Shown: piece by piece, positions 46,131 through 56,898 of the stretch
Layout of the letters: every line of letters starts with the position of its first letter
How positions within the stretch are numbered: the first letter of the stretch is position 1
Assembly (NCBI RefSeq): GCF_000718325.1
Contig: NZ_JOFV01000018.1
Span: 45,009-109,008, forward strand
DNA length: 64,000 bases
From: Oerskovia turbata
GTDB taxonomy: Bacteria > Actinomycetota > Actinomycetes > Actinomycetales > Cellulomonadaceae
Direction of reading: 5' to 3'
The notes under the pieces: model-generated
What the model was told of the DNA's origin: nothing
Databases searched by the model: none
The model's input: the letters and a program-made list of their open reading frames with translations, nothing else
Translations under genes and position numbers: made by a program

Positions 46131-47318
46131 GTGCACCCCGCCCTCCGCCGCGCGCCCGTCTGGGCGCAGGACCTCCCCGTGGCCCTCGCGGTCGGTGCGG
46201 TGTGGTTCGGGTTCGTCGGGTACATGTACCGGGGCGACTACTGGATGCCGCACTTCATCGAGCCGTACTGGTGGACGGGCGCGTGGCTCGTGGGGGTGCT
46301 CGCCCTGCGGCGGGTCGCGCCCGCATGGACCTTCTGGGTCGCCGTCCTGTTCTACCCCCTGTGCCAGCAGGGGGCGTACACGAGCCAGTTCCACCTCGCA
46401 CCGCTCCTCGTCGCGGGCTTCGGGGCGACCCGGGAGGGAGCGGTGCCGCCGCCGCTCGCGGTGCTCGCCGGCACGCTCTCCGGGTGGGCGCTGCACATGA
46501 GGCTCGTCAGATGGGGCGACCGCTGGGAGGTCGTCCCGTGGTCGTCGCCCTCGGCCGTCCTGACGACCGTCGCCCTGGCGCTCGCGGCCGTCGCGCTCGG
46601 GTGGATGGTCCGGCGCATCGCCGTGACGGGCGAGGAGCTGCGCGCGCGCAACGAGGAGCTCACGGCGCTGCAAGGGGTGCTGGCGCAGCAGGCGGTCCTC
46701 GCGGAACGCACACGCATCGCCCGCGAGCTGCACGACGTCGTCGCGCACCACATGTCCGCGATCGTCGTCCGGGCGCAGGCCGCGGACCGCGTCGCACCCA
46801 ACCAGCCCCAGGCCCCGGCCGAGGCGGTCACGTGGATCGCGGAGGAGGGCAAGAAGGCGCTGACCTCGATGCGCTCGGTCGTGCACGTCCTGCGTCGCGA
46901 GACCGGGGACACGCCCGAGCTCGCGCCCGCCCCCGCGCTCGTCGACGTCCGGGCCGCCGCCGCGCGCCTGACCGAGTCCGGGCGGGTCGTCGAGCTCGAC
47001 CTGCCCGACGACCTGGGCGACCTGCGCCCCGAGGTGAGCCTCGCCGTCGTGCGCATCGCCCAGGAAGGCCTGACCAACGTGCTGCTGCACTCGCTCGCCC
47101 CGCGCCTGAGCCTCGAGGTCGTCGCGACGCCCGGGTACGTGCGTGTCGCCGTGCGCGACCCCGGCCCGCCCCTGCCCGACAACCCCGACCTGCACGGCGG
47201 CAACGGGCTCCTGAACATGCGCGAACGCGCCCTGTCGTGCGGCGGCACCCTGTCCGCCGGACCCGACCAGAACGGCGGCTGGCGCGTCCAGGCCGTCCTG
47301 CCCCGAGAGGCCTCATGA
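46131..47318 (+). CDS. Sensor histidine kinase (HisKA_3 type)
   Basis: 395 residues. Four to five short membrane helices (20-160), a short coiled coil (EELRARNEELTALQGVLAQQ), the HisKA_3 box with His201 (RTRIARELHDVVAHHMSAIV), and HATPase_c (IAQEGLTNVLLHSLAP; GNGLLNMRERALSCGGTLSA). The N box reads TNVLLH instead of TNARKH, a small change. GTG start chosen from the leaderless -10 box. Stop overlaps the regulator start (ATGA). Confidence 0.9.
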   Translation: MHPALRRAPVWAQDLPVALAVGAVWFGFVGYMYRGDYWMPHFIEPYWWTGAWLVGVLALRRVAPAWTFWVAVLFYPLCQQGAYTSQFHLAPLLVAGFGATREGAVPPPLAVLAGTLSGWALHMRLVRWGDRWEVVPWSSPSAVLTTVALALAAVALGWMVRRIAVTGEELRARNEELTALQGVLAQQAVLAERTRIARELHDVVAHHMSAIVVRAQAADRVAPNQPQAPAEAVTWIAEEGKKALTSMRSVVHVLRRETGDTPELAPAPALVDVRAAAARLTESGRVVELDLPDDLGDLRPEVSLAVVRIAQEGLTNVLLHSLAPRLSLEVVATPGYVRVAVRDPGPPLPDNPDLHGGNGLLNMRERALSCGGTLSAGPDQNGGWRVQAVLPREAS

Positions 47319-48100
47319 CCCACGCCCCCGTCCCGCCTCCCCCTCCGGAACCCGGTACCCGGCCCGGGACCGTCCTCGGCCACGTCGTCGCCGAGAGCCG
47401 AGCCTTCAGCGAGCCCGTGCGCGTCGTCGTGGTCGACGACCAGGCGACGATCCGCCTGGGCCTGCGCATGATCCTCGACAACGAGCCCGACATCACGGTC
47501 GTCGGTGAGGCCGCCGACGGCGCCCAGGGCGTCCGCATGGCCCACGCCCTGCGACCCGACGTCGTCCTCATGGACGTGCGCATGCCCCACCTCAACGGGA
47601 TCGACGCCGCCGCACAGATCTCCGGGGACCCGGCGCTCGCAGGCGTGCGCACGCTCGTCCTGACGACGTTCGACGACGACGAGTACGTCTACGGCGCCCT
47701 GCGGGCAGGAGCCGCGGGGTTCCTGCTCAAGGACGCCGACCCCGAGGCCCTCGTCACCGCGGTCCACCGCGTCCGGGCGGGCGACAGCCTGCTCGACCCC
47801 GGCGTCACGCGACGGATCATCGAGCGGTACGTCGAGCTCTCGGACTGGCACGCGGGCTCGGGCGTCGCGGCCGCCCCTCGTGCAGGGGCCGGGCTCGAGC
47901 TCGCGACGCCGCGCGAGCGCGAGGTGCTGCTCGCCGTCGCGCGCGGCCTGTCCAACAAGGAGATCGGCGACGAGCTGTTCCTCTCGGAGGCGACCGTCAA
48001 GAGCCACGTCCGCTCCCTCCTGACGAAGGTGGGGCTCACGAACCGCGTCCAGCTCGTGATCCTCGCGTACGAGGCGGAGCTGGTGCGGCCGGGGCGGTGA
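47315..48100 (+). CDS. LuxR/NarL-type response regulator
   Basis: 261 residues. An extra Pro-rich leader of about 35 residues precedes the receiver domain (VVVVDDQ; phospho-acceptor Asp87 in VVLMDVRMPHLNG; FLLKDAD). A LuxR helix-turn-helix closes the protein (ATPREREVLLAVARGLSNKE, then ATVKSHVRSLLTKVG). Cognate to the kinase at 46131. Confidence 0.92.
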   Translation: MTHAPVPPPPPEPGTRPGTVLGHVVAESRAFSEPVRVVVVDDQATIRLGLRMILDNEPDITVVGEAADGAQGVRMAHALRPDVVLMDVRMPHLNGIDAAAQISGDPALAGVRTLVLTTFDDDEYVYGALRAGAAGFLLKDADPEALVTAVHRVRAGDSLLDPGVTRRIIERYVELSDWHAGSGVAAAPRAGAGLELATPREREVLLAVARGLSNKEIGDELFLSEATVKSHVRSLLTKVGLTNRVQLVILAYEAELVRPGR

Positions 48101-48237: not shown

Positions 48238-49038
48238 ATGGTCAACCTCGCGTACGTCATCGCCGGATCGGAAGCCACCGGGGGAGCCGGCATCCAGGCC
48301 GACCTCAAGACGTTCCAGGAGCTGGGCGTCTACGGCGTCGGGACCCTGACGTGCATCGTGTCGTTCGACCCGAGGAACGACTGGGGCCACCGGTTCGTCC
48401 CGGTCGAGCCGCAGGTCGTCGCGGACCAGTTCGAGGCCGCGAACGCCACGTACGACCTCGACGTCGTGAAGATCGGCATGCTGGGCACGCCCGCGACGAT
48501 CGACGTGGTCGCCCAGTCCCTCGCGAGCAAGCGCTGGCACCACGTGGTCCTCGACCCGGTCCTGATCTGCAAGGGCCAGGAGCCGGGCGCGGCCCTCGAC
48601 ACCGACACCGCGCTGCGCGAGAAGATCCTGCCGTTCGCGACCGTCATCACCCCCAACGTGTTCGAGGCCAAGATCCTGTCCGGCATGGAGAGGATCGAGT
48701 CGGTCGACGACCTGGTCGAGGCCGCCGAGCGCATCCACGCCCTGGGCCCGGACTTCGTGGTCGTCAAGGGCGGCGTCGAGCTGCCCGGCCCGGACGCGGT
48801 CGACGTCCTGTTCGACGGCCAGGAGATCACGGTCTTCTCCGTGCCCAAGGTCGGCGAGGAGCGCGTGAGCGGAGCGGGCTGCACGTTCGCGGCGGCGATC
48901 ACGGCCGAGCTCGCCAAGGGCAACGACGTCGAGCGCGCCGTGGGTGTCGCGAAGCAGATGGTCACCGAGGCCATCGAGGCGCGCGTGAGCTCGAACGCAC
49001 CGTTCGACACGGTGTGGCAGGGCGCCTTCACGCACTGA
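48238..49038 (+). CDS. pdxK: Pyridoxine/HMP kinase (PdxK/ThiD family)
   Basis: 266 residues of the ribokinase fold. GSEATGGAGIQADLKTFQEL is the substrate/ATP N-terminal motif; VVLDPVLICKGQEPG carries the CKG variant typical of the Bacillus PdxK (YwdB) branch; VITPNVFEAKILSG and VSGAGCTFAAAITAEL (anion-hole GxGC) complete the active site. The cysteine of GAGC is characteristic. The enzyme phosphorylates pyridoxine and/or hydroxymethylpyrimidine. The ThiD label is equally possible; no thiamine or B6 genes are adjacent. Confidence 0.85.
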   Translation: MVNLAYVIAGSEATGGAGIQADLKTFQELGVYGVGTLTCIVSFDPRNDWGHRFVPVEPQVVADQFEAANATYDLDVVKIGMLGTPATIDVVAQSLASKRWHHVVLDPVLICKGQEPGAALDTDTALREKILPFATVITPNVFEAKILSGMERIESVDDLVEAAERIHALGPDFVVVKGGVELPGPDAVDVLFDGQEITVFSVPKVGEERVSGAGCTFAAAITAELAKGNDVERAVGVAKQMVTEAIEARVSSNAPFDTVWQGAFTH

Positions 49039-49248
49039 CCCGGCAGGCGGGAGGGGAGTCGCGGCAGGGCCGCCGTGCCCCGCCCCGACGACGTCACGCG
49101 CTCTAGAATCCAGGCTGCGTGGTAGGTATTTCGGGCGATTTGTCAGAGCGTGTTATCTCTGCTTTGCTACATCCGTCCTGGGGGTGGATGAATGCTCCCG
49201 GGCGTGAGCCAGGGGGCTGTTGCTCCCCTCGACGAAGAGGGAAACACG

Positions 49249-49683
49249 ATGAAACTCCGATCCCTCGCTGCAGTGCTGCTTGCGGCAGTCTTCGGACTTG
49301 GCGGCGTCGCTGCCGCGCAGGCAGCGACGCCCTGCTACTCAGGAACCGCCTGTTTGTGGCAGCACAGTGGCTACGGCGGCACTAAGTACTCGGTCTCCGC
49401 GAACTGGGGCAGCTACTACAACACCGTCATGCTCAATGCCGCGTCATCAGCCGCCGCCAATGGCGCGGGGTGCAAGAAGACTCGTTTCTACGAGGACGTC
49501 AACGCGGGCGAGGACGTCACCCGCCCTTGGTACTTCCAGCTCTACAGCCAGCAGCGTCTGGGATACAACTATCAGGACCCCGATCTGAAGAACGGCGCAG
49601 GAATCGGTGGATGGCCCTCGGGGCCCGGGGGTAACGGCTGGAACGACACCGTCGAGGGCTGGCGATTCGTCGAGTGCGGCTAG
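49249..49683 (+). CDS. Secreted I36-type inhibitor/crystallin-like protein
   Basis: 144 residues. A signal peptide (1-26, cleaving after AAAQA) precedes a mature protein of about 118 residues with four cysteines (29, 35, 75, 143) and a CLWQHSGYGGTKYSV motif, as in the beta/gamma-crystallin-like peptidase inhibitor family I36 (Streptomyces metalloproteinase inhibitor). It is rich in Tyr, Gly and Asn and less GC-rich than its neighbours. AGAGGG precedes the ATG. A secreted protease inhibitor or antimicrobial protein served by the exporter downstream is possible. Confidence 0.78.
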   Translation: MKLRSLAAVLLAAVFGLGGVAAAQAATPCYSGTACLWQHSGYGGTKYSVSANWGSYYNTVMLNAASSAAANGAGCKKTRFYEDVNAGEDVTRPWYFQLYSQQRLGYNYQDPDLKNGAGIGGWPSGPGGNGWNDTVEGWRFVECG

Positions 49684-49760
49684 GGCGACTCGCAACGTCG
49701 ACGTCGCAGCGAGGGGCGCCTCCTGCGTGTTCCGGACCCGTCCGTGGGGATGAGAAGCTG

Positions 49761-50654
49761 ATGAAGAAGAACCTGTCATGGGCAGTGGGAACGGTTGCCG
49801 TCCTCGTCCTCTCGGGATGTGGGGAGACGATCGACCCCGCTGCCGAAGGACTGAAGGTCGACGCCGTCCTCGATGAGAAGACCGGTGCGGTGATCCTGCC
49901 GTACGAGCAGTTCACGCTCGATCCTGTCGAGGAGTCCCTGCTGACGACGGCACGGTCCGTGGCCGCGACGGTCTGTGCGCGGGAGAAGGGCGTGGCCTTC
50001 GTCGCCCCGACCTACGTCGAGCAACCGATCTACCTGGCGGAGACGTTCTTCGGTCCGTGGACCCTGTGGGAGGCGGAGAAGTACGGGTTCGTCACGCCGC
50101 TGCCGGACGCCGACCTTCGCGCCAACGGTCTGGTCCCCGAGGGCTACGGCGAGCCCTCGAAACTCAACGCGGCGCAGCAGGCGGGCAACGCCGAGCTCTC
50201 CGAAGCCGACTTCCGGGTCATGGACGAGTGCTCCCGCAGTGAACAGGCCCAGAAGTTCTCACCGTCCACGTCAGGGCCCTGGGTCGACGACATCGACTCC
50301 GTCCAGATGAGCATCCTGGAGGACGAGGAGATCGGAGCGGTGCTCGAGGAGCTGGCTACCTGCTACCGCCGATCGGGGATGGGGGCTCACGACGAGGTGC
50401 CGGGTTGGCCGGCCGGGGCGGACGCAGGAGTGATCGACGAGCAGCAGATCACCCTGGCGGTCAAGACCGTCCAGTGCAAGAACGAGCTCGGGAGCACCCA
50501 GAAGCTCGCCGACGCATGGGCCGAGGAGCAGGCGCCGATCCTGCGCAGGTACGCCTCGGAGCTGGTCGCCCAGCGCGCCGCGATCGACTCGGCCGTCGCG
50601 GAGGCCACGACCTACCTCGCCGAGCACCCCGAAGTGTTCGAGCCCCCTGCATGA
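49761..50654 (+). CDS. Lipoprotein of unknown function
   Basis: 297 residues. A lipobox (AVLVLSGCGE, lipid Cys20) marks it as an outer-leaflet lipoprotein. The mature part is polar and helical, with motifs VCAREKGVAFVAP, YGEPSKLNAAQQAGN and ELATCYRRSGM; several paired Cys suggest disulphides. I do not recognise a family. The stop overlaps the next start (ATGA), so it is part of the exporter operon. GAGAAGCTG gives a weak ribosome-binding site; a longer in-frame start at 49674 would destroy the signal peptide. Confidence 0.78.
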   Translation: MKKNLSWAVGTVAVLVLSGCGETIDPAAEGLKVDAVLDEKTGAVILPYEQFTLDPVEESLLTTARSVAATVCAREKGVAFVAPTYVEQPIYLAETFFGPWTLWEAEKYGFVTPLPDADLRANGLVPEGYGEPSKLNAAQQAGNAELSEADFRVMDECSRSEQAQKFSPSTSGPWVDDIDSVQMSILEDEEIGAVLEELATCYRRSGMGAHDEVPGWPAGADAGVIDEQQITLAVKTVQCKNELGSTQKLADAWAEEQAPILRRYASELVAQRAAIDSAVAEATTYLAEHPEVFEPPA

Positions 50655-51958
50655 GCAGGTCACGCCTACCCGCGGGAACGCGGTGGGTCTGGGCCGTGGC
50701 AGGCGGCTCGGCCCTCGTGATCATGCTGTCCTTCGCGGCAGGCACTCTGGTCCGCTCTCCCTGGGAGGAGGCGGTGGACAACTCGCAGCGGCGCCCGGTC
50801 GTCACGGCCGAGGTCGAGCGACGGATTCTCCTTCCCGAGGCCGCCCCGGCCCAAGGGACGTTCTCCGCGGGGGCGACCGTCGACGTCACCCTGCCGGAGC
50901 AGGACAAGCGCATCGTCACCAGGCAGCTCAAGCAGGCTGGTGACGTCCTGCGCTCCGGCGAGGCGTTGGCGGAGGTCTCGGGGCGCCCCGTCATCGCGCT
51001 GACCCTGCCGTTCGAGCTGTACCGGGACATCCTGCCAGGGAGCACCGGGTCGGACGTCCGGGCCGTCCAGGACGCCCTGCGCGAACTCGGTATGTACACC
51101 GGGGCGAGCGACGGCACGTACGGCGCCGCGACCGCCGCAGCGGTCGAGGCGCTGTACGCCGGGGCGGGCTTCCCGTCCCCGGTGGCGGCCCCCGAGCTGC
51201 TCGAGGCCGTCGAGGCCGCGCGTGAGGCCGTCTCGGGCGGAGGAACCACCGAGGGCGTCGGGCGCCCCGAGACCGAGAACGCCGAGGGCACCAGCGGCTC
51301 GCCGGAACCAGCGGCACCCGACGCTCGCAAGAGATCAGCACAGGCCCTCGCGGACGCGAAGGCTGCGGCCATGACCCCCTTGCCCGCGACGGATGTCGTC
51401 GCGCTCCCGCAGGCCGAGACGACGATCGTCGCCACCGCTCCCGTCGGGGCCGACCTGGGAGACGAGGGCGTCGTCGTGGCCCGACTCAGGACAGGAGTCC
51501 CGACCGTCCTGACCCGGGTCGGCGCCTCGCAGGTGTCCGCCTTCACGACGGGCACGTCGGTCATGGTGACGTCGGTGACGGATGCGCAGGTGTCGGCCGA
51601 GGCGGTCGTCACCGCCGTGAGCGACTTCCGTCCGCCCGACGGCACCACGGCCCTTCCGGGGTACGACGTCACGGTGACGTTCGCAGACGCAGATCTCGCA
51701 TTCACCGACGCGACGACCGTGACGGTGGTCAGCGGGTCGGATCCAGCACCGGTCGCCGAGGGACTGGCCGTCCCGATCCTCGCGATCAGGGAAGGACCGG
51801 ACGGGACGTACGTGACCTCGCAGGACGGAGCCGTGATCGCGGTGGAGATCGTCGGGACCGGCGACGGACTTGCCGTCGTCGCAGCTGATGGGCTTGCCGA
51901 GGGGGATCGGGTGATCGTCTCGGGCGAGCCGGATCATCTGGCCGGGCAGCGCTCGTGA
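50651..51958 (+). CDS. Peptidoglycan-binding membrane-fusion (adaptor) protein
   Basis: 435 residues. One N-terminal helix (12-33) anchors an external protein. Residues 129-174 form a PG_binding_1 domain (GSTGSDVRAVQDALRELG, then SDGTYGAATAAAVEALY). The flanking regions resemble HlyD/MacA adaptors, with a lipoyl-like DVLRSGEALAEVSGRPVI and C-terminal beta-barrel VAEGLAVPILAIREGPDGTY. It likely links the ABC exporter to the wall. A coiled-coil-like Ala-rich stretch sits around 175-240. It overlaps both neighbours by four bases. Confidence 0.85.
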   Translation: MSRSRLPAGTRWVWAVAGGSALVIMLSFAAGTLVRSPWEEAVDNSQRRPVVTAEVERRILLPEAAPAQGTFSAGATVDVTLPEQDKRIVTRQLKQAGDVLRSGEALAEVSGRPVIALTLPFELYRDILPGSTGSDVRAVQDALRELGMYTGASDGTYGAATAAAVEALYAGAGFPSPVAAPELLEAVEAAREAVSGGGTTEGVGRPETENAEGTSGSPEPAAPDARKRSAQALADAKAAAMTPLPATDVVALPQAETTIVATAPVGADLGDEGVVVARLRTGVPTVLTRVGASQVSAFTTGTSVMVTSVTDAQVSAEAVVTAVSDFRPPDGTTALPGYDVTVTFADADLAFTDATTVTVVSGSDPAPVAEGLAVPILAIREGPDGTYVTSQDGAVIAVEIVGTGDGLAVVAADGLAEGDRVIVSGEPDHLAGQRS

Positions 51959-52674
51959 CGCTCCTCGAGCTCGCCCGCGTGACGCGCACCTACCCGACCG
52001 ACCCACCGGTCGAAGCCCTTCGCGGCGTCGATCTCGAGGTCGAGGCCGGATCGAGGGTCGCGATCCTCGGGCGGTCCGGGTCGGGAAAGTCGACGCTGCT
52101 CAACGTCCTGGGACTCCTCGACGAACCCACCGGCGGCACGTATCGGCTCCTCGGCAAGGACACCGCCGGGTACGACGGTTCCGCTCGCGACGCGCTGCGT
52201 GCGCAGATGCTCGGCTTCGTCTTCCAGGAGAGCCACGTCCTGGGCAACCGCAGCGCACGGCAGAACGTCTGGTTGAAGCTAGCGGCCAGCGGGGTGCGAC
52301 GGCCCGACCGGGCAGTGCTCGTCGAGGAGGTGCTGACGAGCGTCGGGCTGGCGCACCGGATCGACGCGCCCGGCCGGCTGCTCTCGGGTGGTGAGAAGCA
52401 GCGGCTGGCCGTGGCCCGGGCGGTCGTGACCACGCCCCGGATACTGCTCGCCGACGAGCCGACCGGGAACCTCGACGACGACAACGCCGAGATCGTCCTG
52501 GGGCTCTTCGACGAGCAGGCGCGAACCGGTGTTGCCGTCGTCGTGATCACGCACGACCCTCGGACCGCGGCGTGGGCGGACCGCGTACTGCACCTGGTCG
52601 ACGGACGCATCACCCCTGGCGCCTGCCGAGCGGGCGAGACGTTCCGGCGCGCAGCGCCCGCAGGTTCTTCGTGA
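51955..52674 (+). CDS. ABC transporter ATPase (MacB/LolD type)
   Basis: 239 residues. Walker A GRSGSGKST, Q-loop VFQESHVLGN, signature LLSGGEKQRLAVARA, Walker B RILLADEPTGNLD and switch His (VITHDPR) are all intact. The LolD/MacB-like architecture pairs with the permease downstream and the adaptor upstream. GTG start overlapping the previous stop. Confidence 0.93.
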   Translation: MTLLELARVTRTYPTDPPVEALRGVDLEVEAGSRVAILGRSGSGKSTLLNVLGLLDEPTGGTYRLLGKDTAGYDGSARDALRAQMLGFVFQESHVLGNRSARQNVWLKLAASGVRRPDRAVLVEEVLTSVGLAHRIDAPGRLLSGGEKQRLAVARAVVTTPRILLADEPTGNLDDDNAEIVLGLFDEQARTGVAVVVITHDPRTAAWADRVLHLVDGRITPGACRAGETFRRAAPAGSS

Positions 52675-53933
52675 GCAGGAGACACCCCGCGCTCGGGCGT
52701 GACCGGTTGTTCGACCTGGTCGACGACGTCGTCGTCGAGCTCGGCTCGCGAACGGCACGGGCACTGCTGATGGTCGTAGCGGTCGGGCTCAGCAGCGGCT
52801 CGCTCCTGGCCTCGGTGGGCATCTCCATGTCGGCCGGCCAGCAGATCGAGGCGGACATCGCGGCGTCGACCCTCGACGTCGTCACGGCACAGGTGGTTCC
52901 CCCGACGACAGCAGCGGCCGCCGTGGTGGCCGACGACACCGGACCTGGCCGGATCGTGACGATCCTGCCCGAGGACACGGACGAGAGGGTCGCCCGCCAC
53001 GACCTCGTCGATGCGGCAGGGCGGCGCCTCGACGTGTCAGGGTCGGCGACGGCCGAGGTGACGCGTACCGCGGTCCGCCCAGACCCGGCCACGGCCGGTG
53101 CGAGAGCCGCCGTCACCCCGGTGGTGGGCGTCAGCGCGGGGTATCTCGATGCGGCGCGTGCGCAGGTGTCGACGGACATGCAGTGGCTGCTCGACACCGA
53201 CGAGGACGTCGTGCTGCTCGGCCGGGGTGCCGCCCGGGCCCTCGACGTCCCGCTCACGGGGAACCTCACCGGGGTCCAGGTCTGGCTCAACGGCGAACCG
53301 CAGGACGTCGTCGGCCTGGTGTCCGGGGGAACGGGCGGCCTCGAAGATGCTGTCCTCCTCCCGTACCGGCGTGGGCTCGAGCTCGTCGGCAACGACCGCG
53401 AGGCGGCGGTCCTGGTCCGTACGCTGCCAGGGGCCGGTGCCCCGGTCGCCGACGTGCTCGCCGTGACCCTCCGCCCGGACGCCCCGGAGCGGCTGGACAT
53501 CTCCCGCGTCGCATCGGTCGACACCCTGCGGACGGGGGTCGCGACCCAGCTCGACCGCCTCGCGGCCTGGATGGGGACCGTGCTGACCGCGCTGACGATC
53601 CTCCTCATCGCGAACTCGATGGTGGTCGCGGTCACCGCGAGGACCGCCGAGATCGGGCTCCGTCGAGCGTTGGGCTTCTCCCGTGGACGCGTCGCCCAGG
53701 TGTTCCTCGCCGAAGGCAGCCTGATCGGCCTCCTCGGCGGTCTCGTCGGGAGCGCTTTCGCCGCCGGCAGCGTGGTGCTGATCTGCCTGGCCAACGGGTG
53801 GTCGGTGCTGCTGAGCCCGTGGCTGGTCGTCCTCGGGCCGGTCGTCGGAGCCGGCGTCGGGCTCGCCGCGTCGATGTACCCGGCATCGCGTGCCGCGAGG
53901 ATCAGCCCGGCGCTCGCCGTCCGGTCCGACTGA
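52671..53933 (+). CDS. ABC transporter permease (MacB/FtsX type)
   Basis: 420 residues. One N-terminal helix (ALLMVVAVGLSSGSLLASVG), an external MacB-like periplasmic domain of about 230 residues, and three C-terminal helices with the FtsX signature VAVTARTAEIGLRRALGFSR and ASMYPASRAARISPALAVRS. This is the mechanotransmission-type exporter fold. Start GTG overlaps the ATPase stop. It completes the unit with the adaptor and lipoprotein. Confidence 0.9.
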   Translation: MSRRHPALGRDRLFDLVDDVVVELGSRTARALLMVVAVGLSSGSLLASVGISMSAGQQIEADIAASTLDVVTAQVVPPTTAAAAVVADDTGPGRIVTILPEDTDERVARHDLVDAAGRRLDVSGSATAEVTRTAVRPDPATAGARAAVTPVVGVSAGYLDAARAQVSTDMQWLLDTDEDVVLLGRGAARALDVPLTGNLTGVQVWLNGEPQDVVGLVSGGTGGLEDAVLLPYRRGLELVGNDREAAVLVRTLPGAGAPVADVLAVTLRPDAPERLDISRVASVDTLRTGVATQLDRLAAWMGTVLTALTILLIANSMVVAVTARTAEIGLRRALGFSRGRVAQVFLAEGSLIGLLGGLVGSAFAAGSVVLICLANGWSVLLSPWLVVLGPVVGAGVGLAASMYPASRAARISPALAVRSD

Positions 53934-53979
53934 CCGACCACCAGGCAGACGCACTCGACAAGCCGAGCCGCCGAGCGCC

Positions 53980-53993
53980 TAGGCTACGGACCC
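53980..53993 (+). promoter_or_regulatory. Candidate -10 box TAGGCT before ppc
   Basis: TAGGCT (53980-53985) lies eight bases before the GTG start of ppc, and no Shine-Dalgarno sequence is seen; a near-leaderless transcript is likely. Confidence 0.4.
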
Positions 53994-56672
<2,679 letters not shown>

Positions 56673-56684
56673 TCCGCCCGGTGC

Positions 56685-56764
56685 CGAACATGCGGTTGGC
56701 GTCCCTTTCTCCTCCGAATGCGACGCCAACCGCATGTTCGATCCACGCCAACCGCATGTTCGGC
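56685..56764. terminator. Three-part inverted repeat after ppc
   Basis: The left arm 56685-56703 (CGAACATGCGGTTGGCGTC) pairs perfectly with 56722-56740, and an overlapping left arm (56683-56701) pairs equally with a second right arm at 56746-56764. Two mutually exclusive 19-bp hairpins are possible. It lies between convergent ppc and the endonuclease gene. Confidence 0.65.
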
Positions 56765-56770
56765 GAGGAT

Positions 56771-56824
56771 CCGGTCCAGTCCGGTCCAGTCCGGTCCAGT
56801 CCGGTCCGGTCCGGTCCGGTCCGG
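56771..56824. repeat. Tandem CCGGT/CCAGT repeat
   Basis: Three copies of CCGGTCCAGT are followed by four copies of CCGGT and a final CCGG, a 5-base repeat with a 10-base higher period. It is noncoding, between ppc and the endonuclease gene. Confidence 0.85.
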
Positions 56825-56898
56825 CCACCGTGCCCCCCGACGATCGCGCCGACCGACCCGCACCCGCCCACCCCGGGCGAGCGGCGCCGTCGGGCCGC

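Follow-up and report, generated by a model that had tools for sequence, protein, structure and literature searches.

What could a small secreted protein, a lipoprotein and a wall-binding transporter be doing together in a single compact locus of the actinobacterium Oerskovia turbata? The locus occupies positions 49249-53933 of a 64,000-nucleotide stretch (hereafter the window, along which positions are counted) of contig NZ_JOFV01000018.1, assembly GCF_000718325.1, and an earlier note made from the DNA letters had described it as an export or resistance module of Gram-positive cells. Its five genes all lie on the plus strand and stand where that note placed them, with the identities it gave: gene 1 (49249-49683) encodes a secreted I36/betagamma-crystallin-like protein of 144 aa (GC 63.4%); gene 2 (49761-50654) a lipoprotein of 297 aa with the lipobox LSGC (Cys20) and an ectodomain predicted to be helical; gene 3 (50651-51958) a membrane-anchored adaptor of 435 aa whose residues 132-167 match PG_binding_1; gene 4 (51955-52674) an ATP-binding cassette (ABC) ATPase of the MacB/LolD/lactococcin-972 type, 239 aa; and gene 5 (52671-53933) an FtsX/MacB-type permease of 420 aa. 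A spacer of 77 bp separates genes 1 and 2, and the reported four-base overlaps among the last four genes are exact at all three junctions (2/3, 3/4 and 4/5). As we read it, with a confidence slightly better than even, the operon may be a mobile competition module in which gene 1 is bacteriocin-like, the lipoprotein serves as its immunity partner and the MacAB-type complex gives protection. By analogy, the cluster seems to resemble most closely the bacteriocin plus self-protection genes of the lactococcin 972 or SDP kind. From the original pair of proposals resistance, in the form of self-protection, is the better fit, and export of gene 1 was not supported.

The conserved core of this arrangement is the pair of genes 1 and 2, to which the transporter is usually added in this family, because at the class level the pair recurs in 34 of 40 regions and a match to genes 3-5 lies after gene 2 in just 4 of the 40, of which two lack gene 1. 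The class-level search took gene 2 as the query, found matches in 65 of 394 genomes and used the best-scoring 40 regions, where gene 1 was called with an iterated profile (inclusion 1e-3; 31 of 35 calls confirmed by Pfam). The gene-1-like secreted gene was found upstream of gene 2, on the same strand and at a distance of -10 to 302 bp, and the 34 paired regions span 11 genera, with 11 of the 34 coming from one genus. Among the six regions lacking gene 1, L178 is cut by a contig end, and a separate copy of a set like genes 3-5 lies elsewhere in region L177. The family-level sample comprised 221 genomes, of which 44 have a relative of gene 2 and 23 one of gene 1, and 60 regions were read, namely the gene-2 places plus four gene-1 places. 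Counts compiled by hand gave 33 loci in which a lipoprotein-type gene 2 is followed by MacAB genes (two, G025 and G098, cut by contig ends), and in 22 of them gene 1 is intact directly upstream, leaving the five-gene order whole; here intactness was judged by the open frame alone, and beyond the window the starts of genes were set heuristically. Two of these 22 operons (G212 and G109) entered through gene 1, and counting by gene 2 alone gives 20 of 31. Relatives named by the protein search come from Antribacter, Promicromonospora and Oerskovia, a group (Cellulomonadaceae in the wide sense) to which the window would accordingly belong. The earlier note had proposed to judge the tie of the secreted gene to its neighbours by whether homologous operons usually lack that gene, and the tie is borne out by the 22 of 33 family loci and the 34 of 40 class-level pairs. 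Chance adjacency of gene 1 was rejected on the recurrence of the pair in many genera, a judgement made with no formal chance model.

In 9 of the 22 operons the end of gene 1 runs 1-10 bases into gene 2 (heuristic starts), which argues for a single transcript there; a further negative gap, in L166, is an artefact that arises from how the start was chosen. Moreover, both genes vary together. In a set of 22 operons (21 from the family and one class-level), compared by pairwise similarity with frames taken from the first start codon, the partial rank correlation between genes 1 and 2 was 0.42 given gene 5 and 0.39 given gene 3. Given gene 2, the correlation of gene 1 was -0.03 with gene 5 and 0.12 with gene 3, and that of gene 2 with gene 5 given gene 1 reached 0.79. 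Such a pattern is as expected if gene 2 were to touch both gene 1 and the transporter, although a correlation on related sequences is not proof of it.

A second line of evidence comes from the member of the pair that is lost. In nine of the 33 family-level loci gene 1 is damaged or missing: it is broken or partly deleted in five (G195, G098, G078, G079b and G097) and absent without trace in four (G174c, G206a, G158a and G159); in one other locus (G016) it is intact and convergent, at the far end, and in another (G200) it lies at the contig edge. Comparison of G078 with G079 revealed a 289-bp loss inside gene 1 of the former, in a locus that elsewhere keeps about 99% DNA identity, and in G098, compared with G052, just a 44-base end piece of gene 1 is left and genes 2-4 are open. 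Gene 2 is the sole whole gene in G029, beside a scrap of gene 1 and decayed genes 3-5, and in G159 five gene-2 lipoproteins stand in tandem before the MacAB genes with no gene 1 (L109, 7831-12888). A partner kept and an effector lost is the pattern that would be expected for toxin and immunity genes.

The third line is the occurrence of a bacteriocin in the place of gene 1. The lactococcin 972 family, PF09683, was matched in 20 of 220 family genomes, the genome of the window (G000) giving no match, and 20 of the 28 places so found were examined. A gene-4-type ATPase (E 1e-25) occurs in 16 of these 20, counted anywhere within the region and not singly by its position relative to the bacteriocin gene. 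Three of the 20 show the layout of the window, with a lipoprotein, adaptor, ATPase and permease in that order after the bacteriocin gene: L279, 837-4547 (G027); L281, 3502-7193 (G009); and L283, 773-4527 (G029). Their adaptors match the gene-3 profile at E 1e-25 to 1e-29. They differ from the window in having PF09683 in slot 1 (above cut-off in all three, with TIGR01653 in one), a lipoprotein of another family than gene 2 (203-209 aa where the start is clear, which in G029 it is not) and a permease without a gene-5 profile match; these permeases match one another, and MacB_PCD is above cut-off in that of G009 and below it in that of G027. Gene 1 itself gave no match to PF09683 or TIGR01653 in Pfam and NCBIfam. 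This swap in slot 1 is the best single argument for placing gene 1 in a bacteriocin role. In Brevibacterium, lactococcin-972-like genes are described as sharing an operon with genes for an ABC ATPase and two transmembrane proteins; in two strains it lies on a genomic island (PMC5719810).

What kind of protein, then, does gene 1 encode? A Sec-type signal peptide can be read by eye, with a positive start, a hydrophobic stretch and an end near AQAA, and the four cysteines that had been noticed (29, 35, 75 and 143) all lie past it. The I36-like and crystallin-like assignment was confirmed: PF03995 (peptidase inhibitor family I36) scores 27 bits against a curated cut-off of 21.1, and is matched at E 0.01 by 24 of 25 and 31 of 35 gene-1 relatives in two sets; when a 25-member gene-1 profile was compared with the PDB, spherulin 3a came first (E 0.006) and gamma-crystallins followed more weakly. 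Since betagamma-crystallins are its best matches among solved structures, 'crystallin-like' seems a fair name for gene 1 at the level of weak profile matches. The AlphaFold model, with a mean predicted local distance difference test score (pLDDT) of 36, was unusable. The calcium-binding motif of betagamma-crystallins, which we take to be [ND][ND]xx[ST]S, occurs in 22 of 60 proteins, where shuffled sequences would give about 3, and the copy in the window, LNAASS, fails it. The I36/betagamma-crystallin family includes killer and inhibitor members such as SMPI, SKLP and WmKT, which share their fold family with gene 1 and for which we know of no lipoprotein/transporter operon. The lower GC of gene 1 pointed out earlier is real within the window (GC at third codon positions, GC3, 0.78 against 0.87-0.90) and does not stand as a general trait: over 22 operons the GC3 of gene 1 is below that of gene 2 in 8 and below that of gene 5 in 14 (p 0.35). 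Because it is not lower than in genes 2 and 5 across these operons, low GC was rejected as a mark of separate origin.

Gene 2 matches no Pfam family above cut-off, and its predicted helical ectodomain carries four near-invariant cysteines (72, 157, 201 and 239). The same ectodomain was found in 20 membrane proteins of the family (L080-L094, L105, L113, L114, L116 and L118), all 20 of which keep the four cysteines together with G98, W100 and K240, and none of which has the lipobox cysteine. Each of them is preceded by a sigma-factor gene of the extracytoplasmic function (ECF) type, with region 4 present in every case and region 2 in 19 of the 20, that overlaps the membrane-protein gene by 1 or 4 bp in 18 cases, the other two having doubtful starts. 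These membrane proteins are probably anti-sigma sensors and, since they share the ectodomain of gene 2, that domain probably recognises something outside the cell. Other lipoproteins also adjoin I36 genes, one of them replacing gene 2 in G185 (L098, 7400-8300) and another standing second in G025, behind a gene-2-like lipoprotein (L057, 1480-3249).

As for the transporter, the adaptor does have the peptidoglycan-binding domain attributed to it: PG_binding_1 reaches 30.2 bits in gene 3, covering just positions 1-36 of 57, and is present in 24 of the 24 gene-3 homologues scanned. The Pfam matches of gene 3 are to PG_binding families only, with none to HlyD/MacA-family adaptors. Genes 4 and 5 match ABC_tran and FtsX, both above the Pfam cut-offs, which upholds their description as a MacB-like ATPase and permease, and on these matches the set may be called MacAB-type. 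The best NCBIfam match of both is MacB, far under its equivalog cut-off, and the family L_ocin_972_ABC matches gene 4 at 3e-51, yet below its own cut-off. The MacB periplasmic core, PF12704, gave no Pfam match in gene 5 and was matched in the fused MacB homologues of L244 and L219; no Pfam match to Yip1, the family of YknW, appeared among the five proteins at E 1. The adaptor may, as the earlier note proposed, substitute for the outer-membrane part of MacAB-TolC.

The five-gene cluster is accessory and mobile, because there are empty sites in genomes of the same genus, a relative on a plasmid and copies that bear a transposase. The flanking genes, at 48238-49038 on the left and 53994-56672 on the right, presumably encode a kinase of ThiD/pyridoxal type and a phosphoenolpyruvate (PEP) carboxylase, names that come from motif recall. 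They are neighbours in all 7 same-genus genomes, where the gap between them is 101-230 bp in 6 of 6 relatives against 4,958 bp here. The longest flank alignments stop at 49101 and most restart at 53922-53932; from them and from the gap comparison, the inserted module would extend over 49102..53931, with no strand assigned. The left join falls at a hairpin sequence whose stem letters are kept in 5 of 6 relatives (z -4.6, folded for one relative, G172/L238), and this hairpin is likely the terminator of the kinase gene. At the empty site of G172, 29 bases align to the end of gene 5 with 27 identical, a remnant from which the module was probably once present there and then lost. A gappy and weaker match in G168 (33 of 43 in a seven-block alignment) was not counted as a remnant, and the remaining four relatives show 0-10 bases of gene-5 match.

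Outside the genus, the Leifsonia shinshuensis plasmid NZ_CP043643.1 (L219, 22633-35406) carries an I36 protein, a gene-2-like protein (27% identity) and a fused MacB, with an unnamed protein lacking any Pfam match in the adaptor position. Moreover, genome G212 holds an 8.79-kb element in three copies (L244, 6717-15506, also L245 and L246), 99.97-99.99% identical and each with different flanks. Besides a DDE transposase and a sigma-factor gene, the element carries an operon relative whose MacB is fused, and the ends of the element, compared by eye, form imperfect inverted repeats at 15 of 18 positions. In the annotation, the Leifsonia module appears merely as hypothetical, I36 and ABC proteins.

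How would such a module work? Gene 1 would leave the cell by Sec and act outside as a bacteriocin-like I36/betagamma-crystallin protein that is presumably toxic; the gene 2 lipoprotein, at the producer's own membrane, would bind it as a dedicated partner, most likely for immunity; and genes 3-5 would form a wall-reaching, ATP-driven complex of the MacAB/YknXYZ type that keeps gene 1, or its bound form, off the membrane or wall precursors of the producer. Protection, not secretion, would thus be the task of the transporter. Genes 3-5 are given a protective role, and gene 2 the binding of gene 1, because of the analogy with the YknWXYZ system of Bacillus, a MacAB-like complex reported to protect against the self-made toxin SDP (PMC4887032). 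Both systems combine a Gram-positive MacAB-like adaptor, ATPase and permease, whereas YknW is described as a Yip1-family membrane protein, where the window has a lipoprotein, and the available part of that paper makes no mention of wall binding by its adaptor, in contrast to the peptidoglycan-binding adaptor found here. The second term of comparison is the lactococcin 972 operon, whose orf2-orf3 are called immunity genes (PMC4055356). As far as the accessible text of the sources describes them, lcn972-orf2-orf3 and scbABC share with the window a small secreted beta-rich protein followed by putative immunity/ABC genes, and lactococcin 972 and streptococcin B loci show plasmid or variable carriage, some strains being without a functional bacteriocin peptide (PMC4055356, PMC11796350). 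With the lactococcin 972-type module the operon also shares a Sec-secreted small protein (the signal of gene 1 having been read by eye) before an ABC ATPase and a permease. The window differs from both in having an I36/crystallin-like gene 1, not PF09683, and in adding a lipoprotein and a peptidoglycan-binding adaptor.

This competition reading is built on the gene content, the signal peptides read from motifs, the pairing, the covariation of genes 1 and 2, mobility, gene-1 loss and the swap in slot 1, and several observations count against it. The name of the I36 family denotes peptidase inhibitors, and gene-1 profile matches far from any gene-2 match are common (by eye). Most class-level pairs lack such a transporter, which is therefore not needed for the pair to persist. 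The loss of gene 1 could reflect relaxed selection on any dispensable secreted protein. Gene 1 of G079b, some 34 residues short yet in frame, could still work; in G175 it is gene 2 that is shortened, beside an intact gene 1 and with a full gene 2 downstream; and the ratio of nonsynonymous to synonymous changes (dN/dS) of genes 2-4 between G098 and G052, 0.24-0.28, spans the time both before and after the loss, with changes between G078 and G079 too few to judge it. Finally, the lactococcin-type loci have no clear homology to the window in bacteriocin, lipoprotein or permease (one of the three gives a weak match to the gene-2 profile and none matches that of gene 5), and PG_binding_1 scores 22.5 bits against a cut-off of 23 in the G027 adaptor and was not found in that of G009.

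If the family name is taken at its word, gene 1 would be a secreted peptidase inhibitor held near the cell by gene 2, shielding surface proteins or the wall, with the MacAB genes maintaining the envelope. The score of PF03995 above cut-off, its matches among the gene-1 relatives and the conserved pairing would all suit this explanation, but I36 is a family name, silent on inhibition here, and the tandem copies of gene 2, the selective loss of gene 1, carriage on transposon and plasmid, and a bacteriocin relative in slot 1 would be ill explained by it; we consider it unlikely, though worth keeping in view. A signalling pair, with gene 1 as ligand and gene 2 as receptor lipoprotein of an ectodomain used elsewhere as an ECF sigma/anti-sigma sensor, would account for the membrane proteins encoded directly after sigma genes, most of them in overlap, and for the sigma gene on the G212 transposon. 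However, the lipoprotein has no cytoplasmic part for signalling, no sigma gene is among the five of the window and gene 1 was not found in the ECF regions, so that this seems to us decidedly improbable.

There remains export through the wall, by genes 3-5, of gene 1 or of a product made with it, which was the idea put forward at the outset. It can point to the whole five-gene order in two thirds of the family-level loci, to a related NCBIfam ATPase family named 'putative bacteriocin export' (gene 4 falling below its cut-off) and to region L155 of genome G445, where a different ABC ATPase gene (phmmer against gene 4, 1e-16) follows the pair after 76 bp. Nonetheless, the transporter is unlikely to export gene 1, because gene 1 bears its own Sec-type signal peptide, most class-level pairs lack these MacAB genes (matched in 4 of 40), and in 9 of 33 loci the MacAB genes persist although gene 1 is broken or missing. 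On the last two grounds a main function in dedicated gene-1 export was rejected, and the export explanation as a whole we hold to be very improbable.

If the competition reading is correct, it would give a testable function to widespread secreted 'peptidase inhibitor I36' proteins and to their unnamed actinobacterial lipoprotein partners, it would connect Gram-positive wall-binding MacAB-type complexes with defence of the producer against a secreted protein of its own, and different effectors, I36-like or lactococcin-972-like, would occupy slot 1 in operons of this kind. More speculatively, and with considerable doubt on our side, there might be a class of bacteriocins on the betagamma-crystallin/I36 fold across Actinomycetes, each with its cognate four-cysteine lipoprotein, whose domain would have been re-used, in related genomes of the family, as the outer ECF sensor of the crystallin toxins of rivals.

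Within the locus itself, a search of 49030-54000 gave no sigma-70-type promoter, and the spacer separating genes 1 and 2 showed no stable hairpin (z 1.2), both negatives being uninformative in a high-GC actinobacterium. One gene upstream of the module, at 46131-48100, a sensor kinase and a LuxR-type response regulator can be recognised by eye. On the other side, the spacer after the PEP-carboxylase-like gene (56690-56830) contains short repeats that are RTGPD-like when translated.

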